Source: Rhodospirillaceae bacterium (lineage in GTDB: Bacteria; Pseudomonadota; Alphaproteobacteria; Kiloniellales; DSM-21159). Taken from it: a stretch of 64,000 nucleotides of DNA. The stretch's first letter is position 1. Each line of letters opens with the position of its first letter. The DNA is taken from the NCBI GenBank assembly GCA_006969625.1, contig CP030885.1, positions 3,235,430-3,299,429 of the forward strand. The letters run 5' to 3'. This document shows positions 45,357 to 51,242 of this stretch, piece by piece. Both the position numbers and the translations under genes were made by a program. Under the pieces are notes generated by a model. It did not search any database. It was not told the DNA's origin and saw only the letters and a list, made by a program, of their open reading frames with translations.

Positions 45357-45935
45357 TCAGGCGAAGCGCATCAGCTCGCGCTCGGTGACCAGCGCATCCA
45401 GGCGCCGGTCCGTTGGCTCGTGCGGCACCTCCGGCGCCTCCTGACCGGCGTAGGCCAAGCCCACCGCCAGCACCGGTCCCTCGGCACGCAAAGCCGCCAG
45501 GGTGCGGTCGTAGAAGCCGCCGCCGTAGCCGAGACGATAGCCGCTCCGGTCGAAGGCCAGAAGCGGGACCAGCAGTACACGGGGCACCGCTTCGGCCGCG
45601 GTGTCCTGCGGAATCTGGGTGTTGAAACGCCCTCCGACCAGGGGGTCGCCCGGCATCCAGGCCCGGAACAGCAGCGGCATCGCCTTGCCCACGACCACCG
45701 GCAGGCACAGCGGGTGGCCGCGCGCCGCCAGCGCCAACAGCAGCGGGCGCGGGTCGAGTTCGTCGCGCATCGGCCAGTAGGCGGACACGCAGGCGCCGGC
45801 CGGCAGGCTCAGCCCGGCAAGCAGGCGTTCGCGCACCGCCTCGGCGGCGCCGGGCGCGGCCTGGGCGGCGCGGCGGCGCGCCTCGGCCATGGTGCGGCGC
45901 AGCTCTGCCTTGGCGTCGGCGATGTCGCTGGTCAT
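45357..45935 (-). CDS. 5-formyltetrahydrofolate cyclo-ligase
   Basis: 192 residues (YgfA/Fau family) converting 5-formyl-THF to 5,10-methenyl-THF with ATP. The conserved C-terminal motif RLGYGGGFYDRTLA is present, preceded by VPLLAFDRSGY. The N-terminus has KAELRRTMAEARR. It lies downstream of the 6S RNA gene in the zapA-6S-cyclo-ligase arrangement conserved in Proteobacteria, consistent with processing of 6S RNA from the same transcript. Confidence 0.93.
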   Translation of the reverse strand: MTSDIADAKAELRRTMAEARRRAAQAAPGAAEAVRERLLAGLSLPAGACVSAYWPMRDELDPRPLLLALAARGHPLCLPVVVGKAMPLLFRAWMPGDPLVGGRFNTQIPQDTAAEAVPRVLLVPLLAFDRSGYRLGYGGGFYDRTLAALRAEGPVLAVGLAYAGQEAPEVPHEPTDRRLDALVTERELMRFA

Positions 45936-45974
45936 GACTGCAGGGGGTGCCGCGAAGGCCGTCGGTCGTCAATC

Positions 45975-46134
45975 ATCCTCTGCGGCCTGCGTCAAGCAGG
46001 TGGGCGCCGTAGTGCCGAGGCCAGGACCCCGACAGGGACAGCTCCCGAGGAATGAACATTGGCCCCAGGGATCGAAAGACCTAACGCACCTCGCAGCAAG
46101 GCCCCCTCCGCGGCGTCCGCGGACCCCAGAGTGT
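45975..46134 (-). ncRNA. ssrS: 6S RNA
   Basis: The 208-base gap between zapA and the cyclo-ligase gene holds a 6S-like RNA on the minus strand. The closing stem is visible: CTCTG-G-GGTC (from 46131 leftward) pairs with GGCC-G-CAGAG (ending 45978). The central region includes GCGTTAGGTCTTTCGATCCC and TCCTCGGGAGCTGTCCCTG, which resemble alphaproteobacterial 6S RNA from memory. The open bubble and conserved genomic position support it. 6S RNA binds the housekeeping polymerase in stationary phase. Ends are approximate. Confidence 0.85.
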
Positions 46135-50213: not shown

Positions 50214-50243
50214 AACGGCCGGATCCGCAGGGATCCGGCCGTT
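50214..50243. terminator. Strong bidirectional terminator hairpin after gap
   Basis: A perfect 13-bp stem, AACGGCCGGATCC, GCAG loop, GGATCCGGCCGTT, lies between the converging stops of gap and the PCuAC-like gene. On the minus strand it is followed by TTTTCGTC, on the plus by GCCGTTTGC, so it fits termination best for the leftward gene but may serve both. Confidence 0.75.
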
Positions 50244-50268: not shown

Positions 50269-50748
50269 TCAGGAGTCGGCCGCACCGGGCTCGCGCGGCT
50301 GCTCGACCACGACCTCGACCTCCAGGAAGCCGGCCTTCTCGAAGGTCAGGTCGAGGTGGAATTCGTCGCCGGCCATCAGCGCCTGCTTGACGTCGTTCAG
50401 CACGATGACGAGGCCGCCGGGCTGGAAGGTGATCTGCTGGCCCGGCGCCAGCTCGACGGCCGCGACCTCGCGCACCTTGAGGGTCCCGTCCTCGCCGAGC
50501 ACCGGCGCCTGGAAGACGGCGTCCTGGGTGAAGTCGGTCGAGGCTGCGACCAGGCGGTCGGTCTCCTCGCCCTCGTTGGTGATGGTCAGATAGACCTCGA
50601 CCGCGTGCGCCATGGCGCTGGTCTGCGGCGTCCAGGCATGGCTGGCCTTCATGGTGCCGGCGGCGGAGATGTCTCCCACGTGGTGGGCCAACGCCGGCGC
50701 GGCCAGCAGGCCGGCGACGGCCAGCCCGGCGAACATCTTCTTCAACAT
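50269..50748 (-). CDS. PCuAC-family periplasmic protein lacking the usual copper ligands
   Basis: 159 residues with a Sec signal peptide (KKMFAGLAVAGLLAAPALA) and mature N-terminus HHVGD. The fold is clear from HAWTPQTSAMAHAVEVYLTITNEG (in parts), EETDRLVAAST and TFQPGGLVIVLNDVKQAL. In copper-binding members the segments read VELHEM and GGxHIML. Here they read AVFQAP (77-82) and GGLVIVL (111-117), and the M...M of the middle loop is GTLKV, so the known Cu(I) ligands are absent. Two His at the mature N-terminus and one at 37 remain. A cobalamin riboswitch precedes the gene, suggesting a cobalt or B12 role. Its start has GGAAGGGA upstream. Confidence 0.8.
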   Translation of the reverse strand: MLKKMFAGLAVAGLLAAPALAHHVGDISAAGTMKASHAWTPQTSAMAHAVEVYLTITNEGEETDRLVAASTDFTQDAVFQAPVLGEDGTLKVREVAAVELAPGQQITFQPGGLVIVLNDVKQALMAGDEFHLDLTFEKAGFLEVEVVVEQPREPGAADS

Positions 50749-50799
50749 GGCTTAGATCCCTTCCGGAGGGCCCTCCGCCCTCTCCCCTGGGTTGTCGAC

Positions 50800-50981
50800 G
50801 GCGTCTCGGCAGGTCTCCTGGCTTGCGGGTCGTCGCCCAGCCGTCCCGCCTTCCCGGCCCCGCTCGGGCCAGTGGCGTCACCCTGGGACGGTGGCTCGCC
50901 GCTCACAGTTGCGGGGGCAGCGCCGGTGTCGCACCGGCTTCCCTCTTCGCCCGGGCGCCGCCACGGACGGCAGCGACGCCT
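50800..50981 (-). promoter_or_regulatory. Cobalamin (B12) riboswitch
   Basis: Read leftward, the element has the conserved pieces in order: GGGAAGCCGGTGCGACACCGGC, the core GCTGCCCCCGCAACTGTGAGCGG (in parts CTGCCCCCGCAACTGT), GACGCCACTGG, and near the end the B12 box AGCCAGGAGACCTGCC. Outer arms GGCGTC (near 50975-50980) and GACGCC (50800-50805) close P1. This is an adenosylcobalamin-type aptamer. The expression platform lies in the 51 bases before the downstream start and includes a GGAGGGCCCTCC palindrome that could mask the ribosome site. It directs control of the PCuAC-like gene. Confidence 0.92.
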
Positions 50982-51242
50982 GGGACCGACACGCATGAGT
51001 ATCACCCAGGCTAGACGTTGGATCGTTCGCGGGCAAGCGTCGCCCGTCCGGGCGGATGCAGGGTGCGCACCGAGAAGCGGGCCAGCAGCTCGAGGCGGGC
51101 GAAAGGCATCGTCATGCGAAAGGCTCCCGAGGGCTTCGGCTGCGGATGCACACCACCTGGCAGACCCGGTCCCGCGCCCGCCACTTCGCCTGCGCGAGAG
51201 GCCAAGGGAATTTCGCCAACGGCATGGTAGGGTGCGCTCACG
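50982..51242. other. Intergenic DNA between riboswitch and LytTR gene
   Basis: About 260 bases with divergent promoters. A leftward open frame (51011-51241, 76 codons) has no good ribosome site and an uninformative sequence, so I do not call it. The riboswitch promoter should lie near 51000-51100 on the minus strand; no clear boxes are seen. Confidence 0.4.

Follow-up and report, generated by a model that had tools for sequence, protein, structure and literature searches.

Introduction

Canonical PCuAC proteins (PF04314; e.g. Streptomyces SCO3965 and AccA) are periplasmic Cu(I) chaperones, in which the metal is held by ligands of the pattern HXnMX21/22HXM (PMC13006917). The PCuAC domains of PmoF1 and PmoF2 from methanotrophs (PDB 6P16, 6P1E and 6P1G), which are linked to methane oxidation, have no Cu(I) site and carry an HX10H histidine brace (PMC13006917). 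Known cobalt uptake genes, including HupE, CbiMNQO, CbtAB and NiCoT, encode membrane transporters; the uptake table of a 2021 review of cobalt homeostasis consists of transporters, with no free-standing periplasmic chaperone among its entries, and riboswitch control is noted in the same review (PMC7689651). The passage of cobalt through the Gram-negative periplasm to such importers is poorly known. Secreted beta-sandwich domains termed Ang-1 and Ang-2 (‘anglerase’ domains) are fused to HupE/UreJ-2 permeases, and their N-terminal His has been proposed to capture metal on behalf of a HupE-type permease; the passages that treat them do not describe them as PCuAC or as B12-regulated (PMC12537917).

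Here we describe a PCuAC gene under a cobalamin riboswitch in a 64,000-nucleotide stretch of DNA (the window, to which all coordinates refer unless a locus number is given). Its product shares family, fold and periplasmic signal with the canonical Cu(I) chaperones, but their HXnMX21/22HXM ligands are missing in all nine members of the clade to which it belongs. It resembles the PmoF domains in combining the PCuAC fold with the lack of a Cu(I) motif, and in having a predicted His at the mature N-terminus, followed by a second His that aligns with theirs. It differs from them in its spacing (HX14H, X15 in one member), in an additional His at position 2, in an invariant third His position and in being controlled by a B12 riboswitch. 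With the cobalt transporter genes it has in common the regulatory RNA, often the genomes in which it is found and the logic of a B12 regulon, but the protein is predicted to be soluble and periplasmic and is encoded alone. Like the Ang domains it is a predicted secreted beta-sandwich, in this case free-standing. A small soluble protein of this kind, kin to copper carriers but with its histidine site rebuilt, is a candidate that lends itself directly to experiment and, if the reading proposed here is true, a metal-chaperone fold would have switched metal through the loss of one site and the expansion of a second. Our search of open-licence full text found no paper on PCuAC together with a cobalamin riboswitch, which is weak evidence of absence, and no title or abstract of open-licence papers on PCuAC with vitamin B12 or cobalt reported the pairing.

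A cobalamin riboswitch upstream of a PCuAC gene

50791..51004, minus strand: complete cobalamin aptamer (RF00174; cmscan, model positions 1-189)
50269..50748, minus strand: PCuAC-family periplasmic protein of 159 aa, a variant lacking the Cu(I) motif (Pfam PF04314; alignments)
50214..50243, no strand assigned: 13-bp hairpin in the gap where the GAPDH and PCuAC genes converge; may terminate both (sequence and fold)

The cobalamin riboswitch (minus strand, 51004-50791) was identified with 102.7 bits (E 1.4e-24) against a gathering score of 31.5 bits, and the match is full-length, spanning positions 1-189 of the 189 in the model. The initial annotation had proposed a set of B12-riboswitch core elements upstream of the PCuAC gene; all of these lie inside the match, and the aptamer thus holds up against the covariance model, except that its 5' end had been placed too far downstream, at 50981, and reaches about 23 nt further, to 51004. 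It is the only RF00174 copy in the 4.62 Mb genome and ends 42 nt before the PCuAC start codon. The open reading frame (50748..50269) scores 79.7 bits against Pfam PCuAC (E 1.9e-22; curated cut-off 29.4). It lies between a convergent GAPDH gene and a divergent LytTR gene, and as both are unrelated to it and on the opposite strand, the gene is monocistronic, in agreement with the initial annotation. The strong hairpin that had been said to end it is also present, beginning about 25 nt beyond the stop codon, but it is followed only by TTTTCG and so does not qualify as a classical U-tract terminator, and it is common to the convergent GAPDH gene; a strict terminator scan gave no match at this position.

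Recurrence of the riboswitch-PCuAC pairing

Nine proteins forming one PCuAC clade were recovered when we searched the family, the class (385 genomes), the phylum (398 genomes) and two further orders; their scores are 187-255 bits, compared to at most 132 for other PCuACs. The clade is supported at 98/95 against 19 other PCuACs, in a tree built without two fragmentary rows and without the long-branched L019 and L020. All members found belong to the window's own class, in the sample of which (385 genomes) only four genomes encode the protein; named relatives include Fodinicurvata fenggangensis and Aquibaculum arenosum. The pairing seen in the window recurs in relatives: RF00174 lies directly upstream of the gene in seven of the nine members, representing at least five genera and three families (102.7 bits in the window genome, G000; 126.9 in G005, 121.4 in G006, 113.5 in G075, 97.2 in G291, 120.6 in G479 and 119.1 in G480). 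A rough binomial estimate, using round figures of about four riboswitches per 3500 genes as background, gives a chance of ~1e-19 for seven pairings in nine, a figure made optimistic by kinship since members are treated as independent. None of 34 other PCuAC loci scanned in the same way had a riboswitch directly before the PCuAC gene.

One of these 34 loci (L091, genome G456) had a riboswitch within 1.5 kb, and comprises, in a row on the minus strand (3315-1501), the riboswitch, HupE, a 134-aa ORF and a canonical PCuAC. The latter has the Cu(I) motif and groups outside the clade, making this a second, different B12-linked PCuAC arrangement. It also provides a possible model for an alternative in which riboswitch control is real but the protein is metal-free, or in which the control survives from an ancestral HupE-PCuAC operon of the G456 kind, and the disappearance of the Cu(I) site would fit a metal-free protein. 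We regard this alternative as very doubtful, given that the G456 protein falls outside the clade and that four histidines (His1, His2, His16 and His27 of the mature protein) are invariant in nine otherwise strongly diverged sequences.

A search of plasmids for close relatives returned only PCuACs of <60% identity, and the two loci inspected (Azospirillum and Tistrella) had no annotated B12 context and carried the HxM motif; this lead was rejected. In the Fodinicurvata genus (g3), both genomes (G006 and G005) encode a further PCuAC-like protein (L019 1441-1935 and L020) whose mature sequence begins, after Ala, with HSYKLGELSIGHIW; it has no Cu(I) HxM motif, keeps HX10H at PmoF1-like spacing and has no riboswitch.

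Leader sequences and mode of control

50749..50790, minus strand: expression platform or leader, 42 nt (sequence)
50782-50766, minus strand: possible hairpin GAGGGC-GGAGG-GCCCTC in the leader (sequence)
50764-50758, minus strand: Shine-Dalgarno-like GGAAGGG in the leader (sequence)

The leader closes with the purine-rich GGAAGGG, nine nt before the ATG. The distance from aptamer to start codon is 34-42 nt in G000, G291, G479 and G480, and the latter three have comparable hairpins ahead of the Shine-Dalgarno sequence. Inverted repeats lie directly 5' of the Shine-Dalgarno-like purines in all four (GAGGGC/GCCCTC in G000, GCGGGC/GCCCGC in G291, and GGGAC/GTCCC in G479 and G480), a placement that suggests translational control in these genomes. 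The leader hairpin is part of the minimum free energy fold of G291 and absent from that of the window. Leaders of G005, G006 and G075 are longer (120-127 nt) and contain CGGGGTGTG, a potential pairing partner for the conserved CCCCCG in the aptamer loop. Leader folding energies showed no clear gain in stability over shuffled sequences and did not single out the proposed hairpins and pairings, and a scan for promoter and terminator consensus sequences returned nothing. The direction of the switch, with cobalamin repressing expression, is assumed from the known behaviour of this riboswitch class.

Protein motifs and predicted fold

50686..50748, minus strand: predicted signal peptide, residues 1-21 (...APALA then HH), mature residue 1 being His (sequence; A at -1 in nine of nine members)
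50680..50685, minus strand: codons of mature His1-His2 (HH invariant in nine of nine members)
50638..50640, minus strand: codon of mature His16 (SHAW), invariant (phmmer alignment with the second brace His of PmoF1, 6p16)
50605..50607, minus strand: codon of mature His27 (MAH), third invariant His position (invariant in nine members)

Pattern matching and alignments indicate that the HXnMX21/22HXM motif is absent from the window protein and from all nine clade members, whereas the pattern detects it in nearly all other PCuACs compared. The signal cleavage site was judged from sequence only; following the signal-peptide Ala, all nine proteins continue with His-His and then Gly and an acidic residue nearby (HHxGE/D, HHxGER or HHGE). 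The N-terminal spacing is HX14H in eight members and HX15H in one, and His16 and His27 (17 and 28 in that one member) are separated by a constant X10 throughout, in sequences that have diverged to 38-51% identity between the window protein and six relatives (alignment A3). Many of the canonical PCuACs compared start, after A, with HDYxxG...DHPW, which is an HX10H arrangement alongside their Cu(I) site, and the clade therefore appears to have kept and enlarged an old N-terminal His site while the Cu(I) site was lost. An NCBIfam ‘BRANT His-rich’ match (E 0.006) was dismissed as signal-peptide similarity, there being none above cut-off in 61 genomes.

AlphaFold2 modelled the mature protein with a pLDDT of 90.1 and low confidence for residues 1-3, and the best PDB fold match of the model is Cu-bound PmoF1, a His-brace PCuAC. 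The phmmer alignment pairs His16 with residue 12 of PmoF1 chain 6p16. These similarities are relevant to the alternative that this is still a copper protein. In that view it would bind Cu(II) through a PmoF1-like histidine brace, be repressed by B12 and serve to scavenge or buffer copper in the periplasm; it may, for example, keep Cu from competing with Co uptake during B12 synthesis, or supply a copper enzyme used at low B12. The best fold matches being the Cu-bound PmoF1 and PmoF2 domains, the alignment of His16 with a PmoF1 brace His, and the typical binding of Cu(II) by His braces (PMC8424229, PMC13006917) all favour copper. The N-terminal region of the clade, however, is unlike that of PmoF1, with X14 rather than X10 and with the extra HH and His27.

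Association with B12 and cobalt genes

CobN is present in all seven genomes with the riboswitch-PCuAC pairing and absent from the two without it (G003 and G004), in which we also found no HupE, no CbtA and no riboswitch before the clade gene. Both nevertheless keep the protein with all of its histidines, so the link between its role and cobalt insertion is not a strict one. This retention is a further point for the copper alternative. On the other side, riboswitch loss coincides with CobN loss and, among the genes that the riboswitches of these genomes precede, we recognised no further copper gene; we consider copper an unlikely but still appreciable possibility.

The single riboswitch of G003 precedes a btuB-like TonB receptor gene, indicating that this genome probably salvages B12, and G004 has none. 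Salvage raises the alternative of a periplasmic corrinoid binder that would hold cobalamin or its precursors, e.g. by His coordination to cobalt, and aid salvage via BtuB/BtuF. B12-riboswitch control would be expected of such a protein, and its retention in G003 without CobN would likewise be accounted for. To our knowledge, however, corrinoid binding is known for no cupredoxin-like or PCuAC protein, and in the loci read the clade genes are not beside btuB or btuF, making this alternative improbable.

Most of the other riboswitches in these genomes and in neighbouring ones lie before btuB/TonB, HupE, CbiM, CbtA, CobU-CobW, DUF1636-CobW and CobG-like genes. Two riboswitches of G007 (L067 and L083) precede a gene with a BLUF photoreceptor domain and a Rieske/ring-hydroxylating oxygenase gene, which are unusual for a B12 regulon, so the riboswitch gene set is not perfectly pure. 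Of these names, CbiM, CbtA, TonB, the HupE of L091, DUF1636, BLUF and Rieske were confirmed by Pfam, and the remainder were read from translations. No importer gene was seen adjoining a clade member in the loci read, and HupE was not found in G075 or in G480, the latter genome being only 86% complete. The first of the HupE genes of the window genome (L097) is followed by a gene that is CbiX-like by eye, and the second adjoins hydrogenase-like genes. A degenerate riboswitch before the HupE at L097 was considered and rejected, as no RF00174 match was obtained there even at E 10.

CobN and HupE are each encoded twice in the window genome, yet it has only one detectable cobalamin riboswitch, before the PCuAC gene. 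In two genomes of the same genus, G001 and G002, no clade protein was seen, and three and two riboswitches, respectively, precede other B12 genes.

Proposed function

Control by cobalamin had led the initial annotation to suggest a cobalt or B12-linked function. The B12 link is supported by the loss of the Cu(I) motif, the tracking of the riboswitch with CobN and the mostly B12- or cobalt-related identity of the co-regulated genes, whereas cobalt itself, with two members lacking CobN, is what we infer. B12 feedback, co-occurrence with CobN, the lost Cu(I) motif and the conserved N-terminal histidines together suggest that the protein carries a divalent metal in the periplasm for use in B12 synthesis, cobalt being the likeliest metal. 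We judge it an evenly balanced proposition that the gene product binds metal in the periplasm, is repressed by B12 and most likely scavenges or carries cobalt, with a putative metal site, cobalt as the presumed metal and an importer as the presumed partner. More tentatively, and with a probability we place somewhat below even, it may be specialised for carrying cobalt in the periplasm. In this reading, one branch of the copper chaperones would have given up its Cu(I) site, acquired a multi-histidine site at the N-terminus and come under B12 feedback control, and would now feed cobalt to importers for B12 synthesis. The N-terminal-His domains described as fused to HupE/UreJ permeases offer a precedent for a cobalt carrier (PMC12537917).

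Under the cobalt-carrier model, the riboswitch would permit expression of the message when adenosylcobalamin is scarce, and plentiful cobalamin would shut expression off, probably via occlusion of the ribosome-binding site just downstream. The protein would be secreted and signal-peptide cleavage would expose His-His at the mature N-terminus, where the N-terminal His (through amine and imidazole), His16 and perhaps His2 or His27 may provide the ligands of a histidine-brace-like site for a divalent metal, replacing the lost Cu(I) site. The mature protein would capture scarce Co(II) in the periplasm and hand it to an inner-membrane importer, here plausibly the HupE at L097, and the imported cobalt would be inserted by CobN. 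Counting against cobalt, most His-brace sites characterised to date are copper sites, and in competition for nitrogen ligands Cu(II) normally prevails over Co(II).

Elsewhere in the window, a 6S RNA (45943-46102, minus strand, 68.3 bits) lies directly upstream of an open reading frame (45357-45935) resembling 5-formyltetrahydrofolate cyclo-ligase, which together constitute the classical ssrS-ygfA arrangement.
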